Origin: Methylomarinum sp. Ch1-1 | GTDB lineage: Bacteria; Pseudomonadota; Gammaproteobacteria; Methylococcales; Methylomonadaceae | DNA length: 64,000 bases | Direction of reading: 5' to 3' | Assembly (NCBI RefSeq): GCF_030717995.2 | Contig: NZ_CP157743.1 | Span: forward strand, 3,126,501-3,190,500 | In this document: piece by piece, positions 2,638 to 11,739 of the stretch | How the letters are laid out: each line of letters opens with the position of its first letter | Position numbering within the stretch: the first letter of the stretch is position 1 | The notes under the pieces: model-generated | Database searches by the model: none | Seen by the model: the letters and a program-made list of their open reading frames with translations, nothing else | Told to the model about the DNA's origin: nothing | Made by a program: the position numbers and the translations under genes

Positions 2638-4089
2638 ATGAATTTTAAACCCTTAACACTCAGTCTGGCTTTAGGCATGCTGCCGATTCCTGCAATCGCG
2701 TTAGGTATTGAAAAAATCGAACTGCCCGATATGGGCGATTCCTCCGGTTCCTTGATATCCCCCCTCCAGGAACAAGAATTGGGCGAAGCTTTTTTTCGAA
2801 ATCTTCACGCCCAAATCGAAATCAATGAAGATGCCGAAATCCAGCAATATATCGAAACCATCGGCCGGCAGTTGGTCTCCAATAGCGACACGCCCGGCAA
2901 CCCTTTCCATTTTTTTGTCGTGCTCGATGACAGCATTAATGCATTCGCCGGTCCTGGCGGCTATATCGGCGTTAACTCAGGCTTGTTCTTGCTCACAGAG
3001 GCGGAAAGTGAACTGGCTTCGGTCATGGCTCATGAGGTGGCTCACGTTACTCAGCGTCATTTATACCGGGCCTTCGAGGCGGCCAGAAAATTATCGATCC
3101 CCACCGCCGCCGCTACCCTGGCCGCGATACTCTTAGGCACCCAATCCCCGGAACTAGGTCAGGCGGCGCTGATCGCGGTGCAAGCTGGCAGCACCCAATT
3201 CCAGATCGATTTTACCCGTGACAATGAAATGGAAGCCGACCGAGTCGGCATGCAAACCTTGGTTGACGCCAATTACGATCCACGCAGCATGCCGGTATTC
3301 TTTGAACGTCTACAGCAATCCACTCGCTATTACGGCCAAGGCATACCGGAATTCCTGCGCACCCACCCGGTCTCGGCATCGCGAATCGCCGATACCCGCG
3401 GCCGCGCCGACCAGTATCCATACAGACAATATCCGGACTCCAAAGGCTACTTGCTGACAAAAGCCAAACTTAGGGTGCTTACCACCAGCGACAACCAGAG
3501 CACATTAAAATATTTTCAAGCTCACGAAAACCAGGGAACCCCATTTCAACGGGCCGTGGCCCGCTATGGCATCGCCTTGGTTCATCTGAAATCCCAACAG
3601 TTCTCAGACGCGGAAAAAATCTTTCGTCAATTAGTCGCGCAATATCCCAATCAACCGCAATTCGCCGCCGCCTTAGCTAGAACGGCGCTCGACAGCCGAC
3701 AGTTCGATCAAGCCTTGAAGCTCTATAAACAGGCGCTGCATTATTTCCCCAATGATGTCGCCATTAAAATTGAATTCATCGAAACGCTGCTGAAAACAGG
3801 ATATCCGGAGCCGGCCAAACAAACCTTGGCAACGCTAAATACGCGCACCCGGAAACAGCCGATTTACTATGAGCTGATGGCGCAAACGCAGGCCGCCCTA
3901 GAACAGGATGCGGAATCGCATCGTTATCTGGCGGAATATTATTACGCCAAAGGCCAAACGGAAGCCGCGATCATGCAAATCAAGCTGGCCAAACAAGCCA
4001 AAGAGTTGAATTTTTATCAGCAGGCGATCCTTAATGAACGCTTAAACTTCTTCATTCGGGAAGAAAAACAACGCAAACAAAATCATTAA
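2638..4089 (+). CDS. bepA: Beta-barrel assembly-enhancing protease BepA (M48 metalloprotease with TPR repeats)
   Basis: Periplasmic zinc protease and chaperone (formerly YfgC) that helps mature or degrade LptD and other outer-membrane barrels. The protein is 483 residues, the expected length. It has a signal peptide (MNFKPLTLSLALGMLPIPAIA), then the M48 domain with HEVAHVTQRH giving the HExxH zinc motif near residue 136 and the third-ligand region DNEMEADRVGMQ. The second half (about 290-470) is helical TPR-like, with repeats such as FSDAEKIFRQLVAQYPNQP. It stands alone on the plus strand. Confidence 0.93.
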   Translation: MNFKPLTLSLALGMLPIPAIALGIEKIELPDMGDSSGSLISPLQEQELGEAFFRNLHAQIEINEDAEIQQYIETIGRQLVSNSDTPGNPFHFFVVLDDSINAFAGPGGYIGVNSGLFLLTEAESELASVMAHEVAHVTQRHLYRAFEAARKLSIPTAAATLAAILLGTQSPELGQAALIAVQAGSTQFQIDFTRDNEMEADRVGMQTLVDANYDPRSMPVFFERLQQSTRYYGQGIPEFLRTHPVSASRIADTRGRADQYPYRQYPDSKGYLLTKAKLRVLTTSDNQSTLKYFQAHENQGTPFQRAVARYGIALVHLKSQQFSDAEKIFRQLVAQYPNQPQFAAALARTALDSRQFDQALKLYKQALHYFPNDVAIKIEFIETLLKTGYPEPAKQTLATLNTRTRKQPIYYELMAQTQAALEQDAESHRYLAEYYYAKGQTEAAIMQIKLAKQAKELNFYQQAILNERLNFFIREEKQRKQNH

Positions 4090-4240
4090 TATGCAGCGAT
4101 TGCCGCTTATTTTTCTTTATAAGAACCCACTTATATCAATAACTTACTGTATTTAAAAAATATTTTTGCCTCGATACCATTTTTTTTACAAAATCATTTT
4201 TTTTGATAGACACTTGTGTTTTTTTTGATATAAACTCTTC

Positions 4241-4434
4241 TGCAACTTACGGAGTGAGTTCGACCTAACGGTCGTTTATGAGGAGGAGAGCGGCCTGATT
4301 ATAAGGCTATTGATAACAACAATAATAAGGAATAGTAACTGCTTGGTTATTAACTGCCCAAAGGCAAGCATACAGTCCAAAGAAAAATAATAATAACAAA
4401 AAGTTTGGATATGCCCGCGTTAAGCGGGCTTTTT
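4241..4434 (+). ncRNA. Candidate small RNA with intrinsic terminator
   Basis: The 430-base gap after bepA holds a promoter-like pair (TAGACA at 4207-4212, TATAAA at 4229-4234, 16-base spacer), then sequence with small hairpins (CGACC/GGTCG near 4262-4275; TGCC/GGCA near 4358-4369) and a Rho-independent terminator ending at 4434. No coding frame longer than a few codons follows; the only ATG near a purine-rich site encodes MRRRAA and stops. A short untranslated transcript of about 190 nt is the simplest reading, but it could also be an unusually long bepA 3' region. Confidence 0.3.
4413..4434 (+). terminator. Intrinsic terminator
   Basis: Stem GCCCGC, loop GTTAA, stem GCGGGC, directly followed by TTTTT on the plus strand. 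It ends whatever is transcribed through 4241-4412, either a small RNA or a bepA tail. Confidence 0.75.
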
Positions 4435-4461
4435 ATTGCCCGAAAGAAATGTCAAAGCCAT

Positions 4462-4495
4462 AAAAAACCGGAAAACGCTTTCACATCTTCCGGTT
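4462..4495 (-). terminator. Intrinsic terminator of the TonB-dependent receptor gene
   Basis: On the minus strand, AACCGGAA and TTCCGGTT form an 8-bp stem followed by TTTTTT, 27 bases after the receptor stop codon. It faces the plus-strand terminator at 4413-4434. Confidence 0.75.
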
Positions 4496-4521
4496 CGCAC
4501 CCGTCCAACAATTTGCCCTGC

Positions 4522-6837
4522 TTACAATGTAATCCTTACCCCAATCCAGCCCGCTCTCGGCGCGCCAGGTGAAACGAAACGGGGGTTGTCGAAGTCATCT
4601 CCTAGCACTTCATCCGCCTCGCCGTAAACGCCGAAGGTTTTATAATCTCGATCGAAAATATTCTCGATCTTGCCGAAAAACGCCAAATGCTCGTTAACCT
4701 TGAACTCCGTTCTGGCATTGAAAATCCAATAGCCTCCGAGCGGATCGGTAATATTGGCTTCATCGCCGCGAAAATACTGCTCACCACTATATTGCGTGTC
4801 GATCGCCAACGACCATCTTTTCCATAAATCGACGCCTAGACTAGCCTTATAAATATGCTCCGGCAAACCGGGGATTCTGTCTCCCCTTTCCACATTAACT
4901 CCGACATCGCTGCCCAAATCTAAAGGGTTTTGTATCGTGAAGCCATCGAGGAAACGCGCATTCAGATAGGTGTAATTGGTGGAAAAGTGCCAATCGTCGA
5001 TTTCACTGAACAAATGCGGGATGTCGGCATTGAAACCAGACTCAACGCCGTAACGCAGCGTTTGACCGACATTGCTGAAAAAGCCTTCGCTGATGCTGTC
5101 ACCGCCGCGATTGAAAATAATGTCGTTATGATTGGTGGTATGAAAAAAACCGACATTCCAATTCAGTCTGCCATCACCCATCAAGTCGTTCAAGTCGCCT
5201 CTGAAACCGGTTTCCCAGGATTTCGCAACCACTTGAGCCAACGGCGGGTCGGCGACGAAGGCATTGGGCAAGCGACAGGGATCGTTCTCGTCGGCGCAGC
5301 TAAGCTCCATCGGCGTCGGCACCCGGGAAGATTCGCTATAACTACCGTACATCGTGACATTGTCCAGCATGTTCCAGGTATAACCGACCGACGGATTGAA
5401 ACGGTCGTAATTATGGTGACCGCTGAGTTTATCTTCGCCGTTGACATACTGATTATCCAGCGTAATGCTGGTATGGTTGTAACGTCCGCCAAAGGTCAGT
5501 GCAAAAGTATCGGTCACCGAGAAGGTATCGCTGAAATAAAAACTGTAATTCTCTGTGATGGTGTTCAGCCTGACCCGGGCCTCCTCGATTTGAATCCCGC
5601 TGCCTATCGTGCCACGGTTCGCAGTCAATTGGGCTAATTCGGTGTCCGATTCGAAATGCACATCGGCGTAGTCGTAGGCGGCGCCGAATATGAAACTGTT
5701 TTCACGACCAAAAATATCATGACTGAACAACGATTGAATCGTCCCACCGGTGCTGCGCATATGGGTCTGACTGGTGTTATTAGTCCCGCCTTCAACATTA
5801 TCGCCCGCTAACACCTGGTTGCCAAAAATATCTTCTGCGATTTCATCCTCTTCGTCACATAACAAAGAATTATCGAAGTCACATGCTTCGAAATCGCTGT
5901 CATCGCCGTTGAAGGTTTTGATCCGGTTCTGGCGAAAATAGGCGTTACCGCTTAACTGAATGTTATCGGCCATGTCATAACTGCCGGACAACTCGGAAAA
6001 AAACATTCGCGTGATGGTCTGGTCAGGATGCGTGAATATCGCCTTCCGATGCTGGTTATGCAACTGCTCGGGAACTGCGCCGTTACCTTTCATGTCATTA
6101 TCGTTCGCTCCCAGCGTCAAATCCAGGCTGCCGCGATCGCCGCGCCAGCTCAACGTACCGAAAACCTGTTGCGCCGAAGTCGGCGAAAAGTCCCGCCAGC
6201 CTTCTTCATCGAAATGGCGCAAATCGATGAAATAGCCCCAGGTGCCGTTATTCCAACCGCTGGTCAATTCCTCCGAATGACGATCCCAAGAACCGCCATA
6301 GGCTTCCAATTGATGCCCTGGCGCGGAAAAACCGGTCTTGGTCTGCACCGAAATGGCCCCTCCCAACGTATTCAAACCAAATAAGGGGTTCGACCCGGGC
6401 GCCAGCGTCATCGTATCGATCGCGCCGGGCGGCAGCAAATCCCAGTTAACCGAATCGCCGAAAGGTTCGTTAAAGCGCACCCCATTGACATAAACGGACA
6501 AGCCTTGAGGCAAGCCCAGCAACGGAGAAGCGACAAAACCGCGATAATAGACATCGGGCTGCAAGGGATTGTTCTGCGCTTCATTGATATGCACACTCCC
6601 CATATAACGGTTCATATAATCCGACAAGGAAAGACTCTGGGCATCCTGCAGCTGATCCGAAGAAACGGTTTGTACAGGAGCGGGAATTTTATCCGCGGAA
6701 ACGCCACTGCCCTGCAATGGTGTGACTCCGATGACATCGACGGTCTCCAATTTGATCTTGGGTTTATCTTCGGCCAGCGCATCCCCTACCCCGCTAAGAC
6801 AGAACAAAGGCAGCAGACCTTGCACAACTTTTTTCAT
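4522..6837 (-). CDS. TonB-dependent outer-membrane receptor
   Basis: Outer-membrane active transporter, 771 residues. It has a signal peptide (MKKVVQGLLPLFCLSGVGDALA), a possible Ton box (LETVDVIGVTP), a plug domain (about 45-165, with YYRGF, then LAPGSNPLFGLNTLGGAISVQ), and a long beta-barrel rich in paired aromatic strands ending GWIGVRITL. A Cys pair cluster (DFEACDFDNSLLCDEEDEI) and a loop (SCADENDPCRLPN) lie in predicted extracellular loops. No FecI/FecR, periplasmic binding protein or ABC genes are next to it, so the substrate cannot be told. A weak partial Fur-like stretch (GATAATGAAAAG near 6870) is not convincing. Confidence 0.9.
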   Translation of the reverse strand: MKKVVQGLLPLFCLSGVGDALAEDKPKIKLETVDVIGVTPLQGSGVSADKIPAPVQTVSSDQLQDAQSLSLSDYMNRYMGSVHINEAQNNPLQPDVYYRGFVASPLLGLPQGLSVYVNGVRFNEPFGDSVNWDLLPPGAIDTMTLAPGSNPLFGLNTLGGAISVQTKTGFSAPGHQLEAYGGSWDRHSEELTSGWNNGTWGYFIDLRHFDEEGWRDFSPTSAQQVFGTLSWRGDRGSLDLTLGANDNDMKGNGAVPEQLHNQHRKAIFTHPDQTITRMFFSELSGSYDMADNIQLSGNAYFRQNRIKTFNGDDSDFEACDFDNSLLCDEEDEIAEDIFGNQVLAGDNVEGGTNNTSQTHMRSTGGTIQSLFSHDIFGRENSFIFGAAYDYADVHFESDTELAQLTANRGTIGSGIQIEEARVRLNTITENYSFYFSDTFSVTDTFALTFGGRYNHTSITLDNQYVNGEDKLSGHHNYDRFNPSVGYTWNMLDNVTMYGSYSESSRVPTPMELSCADENDPCRLPNAFVADPPLAQVVAKSWETGFRGDLNDLMGDGRLNWNVGFFHTTNHNDIIFNRGGDSISEGFFSNVGQTLRYGVESGFNADIPHLFSEIDDWHFSTNYTYLNARFLDGFTIQNPLDLGSDVGVNVERGDRIPGLPEHIYKASLGVDLWKRWSLAIDTQYSGEQYFRGDEANITDPLGGYWIFNARTEFKVNEHLAFFGKIENIFDRDYKTFGVYGEADEVLGDDFDNPRFVSPGAPRAGWIGVRITL

Positions 6838-7186: not shown

Positions 7187-7387
7187 GATAGGAAGCGCAC
7201 CGGTTTTTGATGCGCTTCACGGTGTTCGACACATCCGAAGGCAAGACGGTGCTTTGCGTAGGAGCGCCGCCCTCGGCGCGAAAAGCAATTACACTATGAG
7301 AAATGCAGGTCAACGAGGTCCTGAACGATTCAACCGTGACTAGAATAAGTTAAACGTTCGGGGCGGGTTAAATAACCCGCCCCGCCC
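7187..7387 (+). repeat. Long dispersed repeat unit (inverted copy at 53738-53947)
   Basis: The stretch from GATAGGAAGCGCACC through TAGGAGCGCCGCCCTCGGCG and GAGGTCCTGAACGATTCAAC to the GC-rich palindrome CGTTCGGGGCGGGTT...AACCCGCC is found again, inverted, at 53738-53947, and in part at 46440-46621. The palindromic end unit occurs alone at 10802-10838. Confidence 0.8.
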
Positions 7388-7503
7388 CAGCAATTCCCAG
7401 TTTGGCCAGTTTGGCGTTCAAAAAGGGCATGGGGCGTGTTTGTCCTCGACAGACACTCCTCAAGCTCTAAACGCCGCTGAAACACACAAACTAGGAATTG
7501 CTG
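7388..7503 (+). repeat. Palindromic MITE-like repeat with CAGCAATTCC termini
   Basis: Begins CAGCAATTCCCAGTTTG and ends CAAACTAGGAATTGCTG, giving imperfect terminal inverted repeats over about 116 bases. The inner part also pairs (GGGCATGGGGCGTGTTTG against CAGACACTCC...CTCTAAAC). Related copies lie at 17522-17757, 20111-20219 and, in part, 51190-51428 and 54704-54750. No coding capacity. Confidence 0.75.
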
Positions 7504-7585
7504 ATAATTCACAATAACCCTATTTTTTCCCAGGCCGTTCGCTATAATGGGCCGATAATTTTAATAAGATGTATAAGGTAATGCC

Positions 7586-7712
7586 ATGGCAAATATTCAG
7601 GTTTTTCTAGACACCCAGTATGCACGCTTAAAGTCCAATCCCAATTACCAGAAAATCATGGCGTTACCGCCGGCACAGCGCTACGCGAGCTTAACCGGCC
7701 TATTCTTAGCAT
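7586..7712 (+). pseudogene. ZIP-family metal transporter, 5' part (interrupted by group II intron)
   Basis: The first 42 codons (MANIQVFLDTQYARL... to ...TGLFLA) plus one base of a gene that continues at 9753. Removing the intron at 7713-9752 joins T to CG to make a Ser codon and restores an uninterrupted frame into the ZIP transporter downstream. The start ATG has a purine-rich lead (AAGGTAATGCC). Because the intron lies on the opposite strand it cannot splice from this gene's mRNA, so this part runs about 25 codons into the intron and stops at 7789. It is probably a non-functional peptide. Confidence 0.75.
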
Positions 7713-7750
7713 ATCGGGTCAGAGGGAGCCGCAGCTCCCGTCTGCCCACA

Positions 7751-7780
7751 GAACCGTGCGTACGGGTCCGTACACGGCTC
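7751..7780 (-). ncRNA. Group II intron domain V (catalytic hairpin)
   Basis: On the minus strand the hairpin opens GAGCCGTGTACGG and closes CCGTACGCACGGTTC: the conserved GAGCCGU...ACGGUUC arms of domain V, the catalytic core of group II self-splicing. It is followed by a domain VI stem (GGGCAGACGGGAGC paired with GCTCCCTCTGACCC) and then the 3' end of the intron. Confidence 0.8.
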
Positions 7781-7781
7781 C

Positions 7782-9133
7782 TCACGTAAGACGAATCCAT
7801 TGAGATACCTCAAACCAATGCGCTAACTGTCGGTCGGATCGTATTTCCTGTCCCATCAGGTTGATAAACCAACTGTTCGGATAGGCTCTCGTCACCGCTC
7901 GGGTTGCGGAAAGCGCCCACCGTTTCTTGTTGGAAAAGACCGTCTGGGCGGCTTGCTTTCGCGGTACGCCCCGTTTGACCAGGTTTCGATACAGATGCTG
8001 TTTCCGCTTCTGCTGACTCACCAGCCTCGCTCGTAATCGTCGCCGGATATGGGCTTCGATTTTCCTCAGCTGGGACGGGTATTGGGTCAAGCTGTAGTAG
8101 TTGGCCCAGCCCACGTACCACTGATTAAGGTCGGCCAGGGTGTGATTCAGCGTCTGATGGGTGCCTCGCGGCGTTAAGGCTTTGACTTTACTCATGGCCG
8201 TTTGCAGGGCTTTGTGCGCAATCGCCACCGTCCCGTCGACCACGGTAAAGCCTAAGAACTTTACCGCATCGGATTTAGCCACTTGGCTTTTCTCCCGGTT
8301 CACCTTCAGTTTCAGCTTGTTTTCGATGAATTGGCTGACTTTCTCCATCACTCGCTCCGCCGCCTTTTGCGACCCAACGAAAATGTTGCAGTCATCGGCA
8401 AACCGACAAAATTCCAGTCCGCGCTTTTCCAATTCCTGATCCAGTTCGTCCAGAACAATGTTGCTCAGCAAGGGCTTAACGGTCCGCCCTGCATCGCACC
8501 TTCCTTGTTGGGGTTGACGACGCCGTTGATCATCACGCCACTGCGCAGCATCATGCCGATCAAGCGCAAGATGCGTTTGTCGGCGATCCGTTGCCCCATC
8601 CGGCCAATCAGCCGGTCGTGGTGAATACGATCGAAGAACTTCGATAAGTCGATGTCCACCACATAGGGTTTACCGCTTTCCACGATCCGTTGCGCCGCTT
8701 GCACCGCTTGGTGTTGACTCCGTCCCGGACGAAAGCCATAGCTGTGCCCTGAAAAATGCGGATCAAAGATCGGTTCCAGCAACAATTTCAGGGTCGTCTG
8801 TACCACACGATCCCGCACCGTCGGTATGCCGAGCAGACGTACGCCCTTGCCGCCAGGCTTAGGTATTTCCACTCGGCGAACCGGCGAGGGTTGGTAAGTC
8901 CAATCCTGCAATTCCTGTTGCAGACGACTTAGCTCTTCGTCTAAACGGGCTTCAAAGTCGGCTATCGTGACCCCGTCAATGCCGGGTTTGCCTTTGTTCT
9001 TCTTCACCTGTTCAAATCCCGCACTCAAATACAACGTTGAGCACAGTTGGTCAAAGAGTCTTGGTTCCTCAATCAATCGGTCATGTTCGTTCATTTCACT
9101 TTTTTTCTCTCTCTTGCAATGGCCTTTCTTCAA
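7782..9133 (-). pseudogene. ltrA: Group II intron reverse transcriptase/maturase, frameshifted
   Basis: Two minus-strand frames make up one intron-encoded protein. The upstream part (8465-9133) has the RT fingers and palm (GIDGVTIADFE, IPTVRDRVVQ, YGFRPGRSQHQAV, VVDIDLSKFFDRI) and ends GAMQGGPLSPC then stop. The downstream part (7782-8471) resumes LSNIVLDELDQELEKRGLEF with the active site FADD (usually YADD), thumb, and maturase domain (TRAYPNSWF). Adding one T at about 8471 would restore GGPLSPLLSN, so a single-base deletion breaks the gene. There is no HNH endonuclease domain. A more likely start than the first Met is MNEHDRLIEE at 9094. A sequencing error cannot be excluded. Confidence 0.82.
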
Positions 9134-9739
9134 TCTCGCGCAATCGATTCGTTCACTGTTTACGACGCGAATAGTCGATTGCTCCTGTCAGGCTGATCTC
9201 AGACCCTCAGTTTATAATCAACGGCCATGGCCGCTTACGTGTTCCACCCTTCACCTCCAACTTCCTGTCACTGGTTCGATGTTTTTCCCTCAGCTATGTC
9301 ACCATAACCTCATCGGCATCGAACTTTACGATTACTACGGCTTCATCTGCAGACCCTCGGTTCATCACGTCAGCATTACTGCTGCGCTTAGGGCTTAAGG
9401 TGTCGCAGTTACACCGACCCGAAGCCGACGGCCCTTCACTGGGTAAGATAGTCAACTTTATCTCGGTCCACCTACCTTCAATACAACAGCAAGTTACGGT
9501 GAGAATATCGGACTTCGGTGGACGCGGGCACCTCATCCTCTTGCTGCCGCCTTACGAAGGTTCACTCTCGTTTAGGTGACCGATTCGGCTAGAGCTTCTT
9601 TCAGATTCCGCATTGGCTCTCGGTAACCGTGCTTCCCTGTTGGGTAGCTACCGGGAGTTTCTTTGGACACCCTTGCTTTCGCCTACTTCTTCCCTTCTCA
9701 CAGGGCAAAGGCTGGACTTTCACCAGCTAGCTGACTACC

Positions 9740-10555
9740 ATGCCAGTCACACCGCAAATCGTCATATTCGGCGCCTTATACCTGCTCTTCGGCAAAATTG
9801 TCGTCATCGGCTTCCTGGCCAGCATTCTGGCCGGCCTGGCCACCGGCGTCGGCGCCCTGCCGGCGCTGTTTTTCAAGGAAATCTCGCTATCGCTGTTCAA
9901 TGGCATGCTCGGCATGGCCGCCGGCGTGATGCTGGCCGCAACGGCATTCTCCCTACTGTTGCCCGGCATCGAGTACGGCGACCTGATCTGGCCGGGCAAT
10001 GGCTTATGGGTGGTCGCCGCCGGCATGCTGATCGGCGCTTATTTCCTGCACTATGCCGATGAAAAATTACCGCATCTGCATTTTGACACCGCGCCGGATA
10101 CTAGCCTGAATTCGATGCAGAAAATCTCCCTGTTTATTATCGCGATCACCATCCATAATTTTCCCGAAGGCATGTCGGTCGGGGTCAGTTTCGGAACCGG
10201 CGACATCAAAAACGGCATCGTGCTGGCGATCGCCATCGGCATGCAGAACATCCCCGAAGGCATGGCGGTCGCCTTGCCGCTGGTCGGACTGGGCTACAAC
10301 AAATGGAAAGCGGTCGGCATCGCCACGCTGACCGGACTAGTCGAACCGGTAGGCGGACTGTTGGGAATCACGATGGTCTCGGTGTTCTCGCCGATACTGC
10401 CAATCGCGATGGGGTTTGCCGCCGGCGCGATGTTGTTCGTCATCAGCGAGGAAATCATCCCGGAAACCCATGCCAACGGCCGTTCCCGAATCGCCACCTT
10501 CGCCCTGATGATCGGCTTCATTATCATGATGGCCTTGGAAAGATTACTAGGCTAA
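9740..10555 (+). CDS. ZIP-family metal transporter, main part (start codon from intron sequence)
   Basis: Divalent metal (zinc/iron) permease of the inner membrane. It has the ZIP signature segments HNFPEGMSVGVSF and NIPEGMAVALPL, and GLVEPVGGLLG, which line the metal path, and about eight membrane helices ending ALERLLG. Native sequence starts at 9753; the codons ATG CCA GTC ACA (9740-9751) belong to the intron's 5' end read in reverse. The truncated frame of 271 residues still contains the full set of helices (E. coli ZupT is 257 residues), so it could be functional if translated. No clear ribosome site precedes 9740. The original gene started at 7586. Confidence 0.78.
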   Translation: MPVTPQIVIFGALYLLFGKIVVIGFLASILAGLATGVGALPALFFKEISLSLFNGMLGMAAGVMLAATAFSLLLPGIEYGDLIWPGNGLWVVAAGMLIGAYFLHYADEKLPHLHFDTAPDTSLNSMQKISLFIIAITIHNFPEGMSVGVSFGTGDIKNGIVLAIAIGMQNIPEGMAVALPLVGLGYNKWKAVGIATLTGLVEPVGGLLGITMVSVFSPILPIAMGFAAGAMLFVISEEIIPETHANGRSRIATFALMIGFIIMMALERLLG

Positions 10556-10581
10556 AACCTTATCGCGATATCCAACTCTGC

Positions 10582-10670
10582 CTGTAGGAGCCCGGTGTAA
10601 AAGCGGGAGTCTGAAGCTACCGAACACTTACGCTTGACGCCCTCGTTCACGCCGTAGGCTGCTCCTACAG
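10582..10670. repeat. REP-like element with 10-bp terminal inverted repeats
   Basis: Begins CTGTAGGAGC and ends GCTCCTACAG, 89 bases, GC-rich between. It is the 3' neighbour of the ZIP gene and resembles bacterial REP units. The same GTAGGAGC core appears in the other repeat family (7256, 46514, 53867). Confidence 0.65.
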
Positions 10671-10682
10671 AATTATCGAATT

Positions 10683-10920
10683 CGATATGATGCCATTTCA
10701 CAGCTTTTATTTACCTCCTACTCACAATCATGGGTAGCTGAGCAGGCCGGGGATTGTAACCCCGGCCTGAAGCTTTCAATCCTATGCCAAACTAAAAACC
10801 AAAACGTTCGGGGCGGGTTGATTAACCCGCCCCGCCCAGAGGGATGACGCGCTATTTAACCAATGTGCTGGTTCAGGTATTTTTGAATGAGGGAGCCCTG
10901 CGATATGATGCCATTTCACA
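10683..10920 (+). repeat. Segment flanked by 20-bp direct repeats, with two GC-rich palindromes
   Basis: CGATATGATGCCATTTCACA occurs at 10683-10702 and 10901-10920. Between them lie a 10-bp-stem hairpin CAGGCCGGGG/CCCCGGCCTG (10743-10769) and the palindrome GGGCGGGTT/AACCCGCCC (10802-10838). Neither hairpin has a following T run, so they are not simple terminators. No gene lies between 10556 and 11046. Confidence 0.65.
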
Positions 10921-11046: not shown

Positions 11047-11739
11047 ATGGACATCTTACAAGATATTGTTAATTTTCTGGCCTCACAACATTTTGCCCAA
11101 TTGTCGGCGACAACGCTGGCCAGCTTCACCCTGATAGCGGCCGCCGAAATCGGCGACAAAAGCCAATTGGTTTGTATGACCTTGGCCTCACGACACCGCG
11201 GTATGCCGGTCATCTGGGGCGCTATTGCCGCCTTTGTCTTGCTGAACACCTTGGCAGTCGTATTCGGCGCGGCGATCGCCAAATGGCTGCCGGAATATAT
11301 CGTCGCCGCAACCGTCGCCCTGTTATTTGCCGCCTTTGGCCTTCATGCGCTATTTAATTACGAGGACGAGGATGACGATGAAGAAGTCGTCGAGAAAAGC
11401 GGACATAGCATATTCTTCACGACCTTTTTATTGATCACCGTCGCCGAGTTCGGCGATAAGACGCAGCTCGCCGTCGTCGCCTTCAGCAGTACCGCCAATC
11501 CCTACGCCGTCTGGATTGGCTCGACACTGGCGCTGATCTTTACGTCGGCGTTGGGCGTCTGGGCCGGGCGCACGATCTTGCAAAAACTGCCGCTGTCTCT
11601 GCTGCATAAGATCAGCGGCATTATCTTCCTGATTCTGGCCGGCATCGCCGCAGTTCGCGCCTATGACGGCGTCATCGAAGCGATGAACCAAGGCGCTCTG
11701 CCTGATTTGAGCCGCTTCATCGAAAAGCTTGGACTTTAG
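11047..11739 (+). CDS. GDT1/TMEM165 (UPF0016) family cation transporter
   Basis: Inner-membrane protein of 230 residues with six to seven helices in two homologous halves. Each half has the family's signature: EIGDKSQL near residue 36 and EFGDKTQL near 136, the acidic residues that bind the cation. Characterised members move Ca2+ or Mn2+ (yeast Gdt1, human TMEM165, bacterial Mn2+ exporters). A charged loop DEDDDEEVVE separates the halves. Export of manganese is the likely role by family, not proven here. It is a single gene with flanking spacers. Confidence 0.85.
   Translation: MDILQDIVNFLASQHFAQLSATTLASFTLIAAAEIGDKSQLVCMTLASRHRGMPVIWGAIAAFVLLNTLAVVFGAAIAKWLPEYIVAATVALLFAAFGLHALFNYEDEDDDEEVVEKSGHSIFFTTFLLITVAEFGDKTQLAVVAFSSTANPYAVWIGSTLALIFTSALGVWAGRTILQKLPLSLLHKISGIIFLILAGIAAVRAYDGVIEAMNQGALPDLSRFIEKLGL

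Follow-up and report, generated by a model that had tools for sequence, protein, structure and literature searches.

What becomes of a ZIP metal transporter gene when a group II intron enters it in antisense and happens to bring an ATG in frame with the coding sequence that remains? Such a locus is found in Methylomarinum sp. Ch1-1, in a stretch of 64,000 nucleotides (the window) on contig C2 of its 4.77-Mb genome. A first-pass annotation proposed that the intron donates a new start codon to a truncated protein that is still active, and that antisense insertions of such introns may do so more generally. The analysis detailed below points instead to a plainer reading, which is highly probable: a recent and ordinary antisense gene disruption, with a start codon brought in by accident. 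The features of the locus are listed in Table 1.

Table 1. Features of the interrupted ZIP gene and of the intron, in window coordinates
Feature	Position	Strand	Basis or remark
ZIP gene, 5' exon	7586..7712	+	42 codons and one further base
Group II intron, class IIC-like, 2040 nt	7713..9752	-	Antisense to the ZIP gene; Rfam and genome copies
Intron 3' end, RF00029 Intron_gpII	7713..7782	-	Rfam, 48.5 bits (cut-off 40)
Reverse transcriptase C-terminal part, maturase domain GIIM	7782..8471	-	Domain match
Reverse transcriptase N-terminal part, RVT_1	8465..9133	-	Listed from TTG
Intron RNA domains, RF02001 group-II-D1D4-3	9450..9623	-	Rfam, 76.1 bits (cut-off 32)
ATG provided by the intron 5' end (GTGTGACTGGCATGG) read in antisense	9740..9742	+	No Shine-Dalgarno match in the preceding 20 bases
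271-aa open frame, MPVTP plus native residues 44-309	9740..10555	+	ORF list
ZIP gene, 3' exon	9753..10555	+	TM0 (half) and TM1-TM8; contains both PEG motifs and the stop codon

The intron and its copies

The genome contains eight full-length copies of the intron, the one in the window and seven others, with identical first and last bases: all begin GTGTGACTGGCATGG and end GACCCGAT. Group II introns have the consensus ends GUGYG (5') and AY (3'), with which the termini GTGTG...CGAT of the eight copies agree. The intron ends, previously deduced from the restoration of the ZIP reading frame, are thus fixed independently by the seven other copies; the two lines of evidence agree to the base, and the Rfam Intron_gpII match also ends at 7713. 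Since both Rfam matches lie on the minus strand, the antisense orientation is also borne out, which means that splicing cannot remove the intron from the ZIP mRNA. Identity between the window copy and each of the seven others is 99.66-99.90%, which indicates that the insertion is recent.

A single base in a run of C, near 8465-8471, interrupts the reverse transcriptase (RT) frame of the window copy, whose two domains are present in two different frames. An unbroken RT frame is found in one of the eight copies only (L003), the others being interrupted by single-base differences, several of them in runs. One C is missing from a C run in six of the eight copies, that of the window included. Either most copies may rely on a single RT source, or run-length errors may have been introduced during assembly. 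The intact RT of L003 comprises RVT_1 and GIIM, no endonuclease domain being found in it with Pfam, and its best PDB sequence match is the GsI-IIC RT (E 1.5e-101). Judged by this best match and by the domain content, the intron is probably a member of class IIC; the family resembles GsI-IIC and B.h.I1 (group IIC, bacterial class C) in having an RT/maturase with RVT_1 and GIIM only.

Eight near-identical 2-kb copies with single-base run differences, such as long-read assemblies can yield, could also suggest that the copy at the ZIP locus is not fixed, the assembly having joined a variant from a subpopulation or misplaced a copy, with intact ZIP alleles in the culture. However, both junctions are clean, ZIP sequence is present on both flanks, and the whole genome is assembled in three contigs, which makes this the least probable of the explanations considered here.

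Of 151 family genomes, 45 gave matches to the intron DNA. When 369 genomes from across the class were sampled for a 23-base version of the 5' motif, it was present in the window's own genome and in none of the 368 others. Short remnants consisting only of the first or last ~100 bases were also observed (L148 1045-1145, L151 952-1056, L149 952-1052); they are 93-100% identical to the full element and adjoin unrelated sequence. Remnants that retain only the 5' end are not expected from incomplete reverse transcription alone.

The interrupted gene and its probably accidental start codon

When 7586-7712 is joined by script to 9753-10555, a native frame of 309 aa is obtained. A tblastn search with this frame retrieved 111 loci, two of which (L001 and L009) correspond to the window itself. 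At the 109 others, which include some genomes retrieved twice with different tools, the ZIP frame is uninterrupted, with at least 311 codons between stops and 70-79% identity over nearly the full length. The loci of the same-genus genomes G001 and G004 are among these 109. Named relatives of the ZIP gene among the 80 loci retained out of 170 include Methylomonas, Methylobacter, Methylovulum and Methylomicrobium, in keeping with a host among the gammaproteobacterial methanotrophs of the Methylococcaceae. The orthologues carry an N-terminal region with a hydrophobic segment around residues 35-55, which implies that the native start is not located beyond 9753, as it would have to be in sister strains for the first-pass reading to be refuted by its own test. 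Four other ZIP-family matches are found elsewhere in the genome, at 24-40% identity (weakest E 2.4e-4). Downstream in the window, on the same strand, a GDT1-type divalent cation antiporter gene (PF01169, 11047-11739) is a second metal transporter gene beside that of the ZIP.

The ATG reported at 9740 does open a truncated frame of 271 aa, and it is the only in-frame ATG, GTG or TTG before 9905. The number of native residues has to be corrected from 268 to 266 intact ones (Q44-G309), since codon 5 is a hybrid in which the native Ser is replaced by Pro. As for the origin of this ATG, it is found at the same place, four codons plus one base from the junction, in all 24 intron 5' ends that, among the loci retrieved with the intron, align from base 1 or 2, and is kept even where the adjoining bases vary. 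Being fixed in the intron, it will fall in frame, by chance, for one of three insertion phases. Whereas the insertion itself is more than chance, the in-frame ATG at 9740 is not: it is shown to be an accident that comes with the intron's conserved 5' end.

Could this accident nevertheless have yielded a useful protein? The intron-borne ATG might start a truncated, at least partly active ZIP replacing the native protein, its mRNA being provided by read-through from the native promoter or by a cryptic promoter in the antisense intron. Pfam Zip (PF02535) matches residues 131-266 of the 271-aa frame with 87.3 bits (cut-off 35.1). HNxPEG and QNxPEG are the metal-site motifs of ZIP proteins and, as the first-pass annotation stated, both are kept, in the form of HNFPEG and QNIPEG. 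The solved relatives comprise five distinct sequences aligned over query residues 22-271 (E ~6e-54); PDB entries 5tsa, 5tsb, 7z6m and 8ght, which we take to be all of BbZIP from Bordetella bronchiseptica, allow residues 22-271 to be aligned across TM1-TM8. BbZIP is described as having nine helices: besides eight that are conserved there is TM0 (called TMa by Wiuf et al.) at the N-terminus, whose association with the others is only weak. The human ZIPs are predicted to have eight.

The native protein looks like BbZIP, with the same length class (309 aa) and, in orthologues, the additional N-terminal helix; the difference is that this helix is cut by the intron in the window genome. In the model of an orthologue (L042), used to place TM0 only (mean pLDDT 67.3, block means 68-86 at TM0), the N-terminal helix spans residues 29-55. 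TM0/TMa, complete in the orthologues, is therefore split in mid-helix in the window gene, the junction being at residue 43. The AlphaFold model of the 271-aa frame, a weak one (mean pLDDT 55.7, 25 sequences in the alignment) used for helix order only, has a helix stub at 3-17, followed by helices matching TM1-TM8. Instead of all expected helices, as first proposed, the frame thus retains the eight core helices and loses half of the ninth, a loss that may disturb the topology.

Experiments on BbZIP bear on this point. In the truncation data of Wiuf et al. 2022 (PMC9278863), a variant lacking everything before TM1 (T2, deletion 3-52) had decreased function, whereas a shorter truncation (T1, deletion 3-20) appeared hyperactive. 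T2 is the nearer laboratory analogue of the 271-aa frame, although in the latter, unlike in T2, ~13 TM0 residues are still present after MPVTP.

Expression may also meet obstacles. Read from the native start, the 5' exon runs on into the antisense intron, giving 67 codons before a stop codon that starts at 7787, which leaves ~1.95 kb of untranslated antisense intron before the ATG. Polarity would be expected over so long an untranslated stretch. Pairing of the 20 upstream bases with the anti-Shine-Dalgarno sequence amounts to 0.0 kcal/mol at 9740, compared with -4.0 at the native start 7586 and with -5.8, -3.0, -2.9 and 0.4 kcal/mol at four other gene starts in the window. Since the last of these values belongs to the gene start at 11047, which also lacks a Shine-Dalgarno sequence, the missing one at 9740 is weak evidence and translation may still occur. 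A promoter scan of 7300-10800 gave two sites, both on the minus strand (mean of 2.7 in shuffles); no plus-strand site was detected before 9740, and none before the native start either. The scan, which misses the native promoter too, consequently says nothing about 9740. The reduced function of T2 and, more weakly, the missing Shine-Dalgarno sequence thus speak against the activity first attributed to the truncated protein, and its replacing the native one is unlikely.

Insertion sites of the intron family

An exact-pattern search of the intron 5' end, with a pattern that itself includes the ATG, gave 44 sites in 21 of 237 family genomes. GYG forms the three bases before the site in 42 of them. 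The 40 nt preceding the sites are, with RNA parameters, more structured than random upstream flank (mean -7.7 vs -5.5 kcal/mol, p 0.0035). According to a review (PMC4424553), IIC introns insert at terminators and less often at attC. The ZIP site is weakly structured (-2.7 kcal/mol, rank 39 of 44).

The other copies in the genome give some clues about the targets. Three of them (L002, L003 and L004) are located within copies of a dispersed repeat of 85 bases, for which there are 18 unsplit matches and six half matches that flank these introns; L008 adjoins one such repeat at 16 bases. L007 is inserted in the palindromic repeat GGTGGATAAGCGNAGCGCATCCACC, of which 35 exact unsplit copies are present in the genome. 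This suggests that REP-like elements are IIC targets in this genome. In contrast to these four copies in dispersed extragenic repeats (L002, L003, L004 and L007), that of the window is in a coding gene and looks like an ectopic insertion. A group II intron of Pseudomonas putida KT2440 is similarly tied to repetitive extragenic palindromes, two of nine copies being in REP elements in a table of PMC1525189; the host and the repeat differ, and the likeness concerns location.

All 44 sites were screened, on both strands, for open runs that end or begin at the junction. No run of at least 100 codons is present at 37 sites, and seven have one; because long open runs were used as a screen, short host genes were perhaps missed. 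Three antisense insertions into genes are supported, two of them with the ATG in frame. The first is the ZIP gene. The second (L190, G145:C1:2488500-2497500, 3706-6401) concerns a conserved gene of another methanotroph. Matches to its protein occur in 100 of the 237 genomes, and most relatives have frames of 210-282 codons. The ATG opens a 166-aa frame there, MPVTP plus 161 residues, and the 5' part of the gene, in matching phase beyond the intron, looks by eye like a signal peptide. Since this N-terminus is left behind, the product should not be exported. The matches to this gene in relatives G162 and G239 contain stop codons. The third is a TonB receptor gene in G084, cut within the plug domain, with the ATG out of frame as judged from the 3' part.

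Two further candidates were not counted: at L005 the gene next to the intron has its own start on the far side of the junction, and at L170 both strands are open. L134 and L135, where the ATG frame is open for 82 and 79 codons, were left out of the count, and L160, with a sense run of 112 codons, falls outside it. One sense insertion was found, in a DUF3375 gene.

The constant antisense ATG of these Methylococcaceae introns, which adds MPVT to the host frame, could be regarded as a start codon that travels with the family and would here have freed an eight-helix ZIP of its N-terminal regulatory tail. If so, the 3' part of a gene would stay translatable after any antisense insertion in the right phase. 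Two in-frame cases out of three do not exceed chance, the probability of at least two at 1/3 each being ~0.26 (arithmetic). Among the matches listed, none of the literature titles and abstract openings deals with a group II intron supplying an antisense start codon. The proposal of a start codon that travels with the family is very unlikely. With one product deprived of its signal-peptide-like N-terminus and one insertion out of frame, the generalization that antisense introns create active truncated proteins has no support from the other cases of the family.

Age of the insertion and its meaning

The 3' frame of the ZIP gene has neither stops nor frameshifts. Its pN/pS is 0.19 to G001 and 0.13 to G004, with values of 0.07-0.20 for six other pairs. 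The selection tests kept 107 sequences, 95 of them distinct, rows with gaps in the window sequence having been dropped. Over the 95 distinct core sequences, that of the window differs at one column which is invariant in all the others (mean of such changes 0.21, maximum 3). Where conservation is 93% or higher, it departs at three columns (median 1, maximum 12; at least three in 23 of 95). Compared in this way, its departure count appears slightly over the median and unremarkable. The clean frame and the ordinary pN/pS would also fit a working truncated product, but the insertion is too recent for them to count: with little time for decay, an intact 3' frame is uninformative on function, and the tests have no power, neither for nor against it.

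The disruption could be envisioned as follows. A group IIC intron, whose eight near-identical full copies suggest recent activity in this methanotroph, entered the coding ZIP gene on the strand opposite to transcription. It thereby split a nine-helix BbZIP-like transporter inside its first helix, the ATG beside the junction being a by-product of the conserved intron 5' end. The ZIP gene would most likely be knocked out or nearly so, and the other ZIP-family genes of the genome may cushion the loss. A small amount of reinitiated 271-aa product could be made.

This locus offers a clean, recent example of an antisense IIC intron breaking a chromosomal gene. Should the 271-aa product be both made and active, nature would have provided a nine-helix ZIP truncated at its N-terminus, useful for studying the role of TM0 and of the N-terminal tail. 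Mainly, the locus illustrates that a gene caller may take a broken gene for an intact one when an ATG happens to fall in frame.
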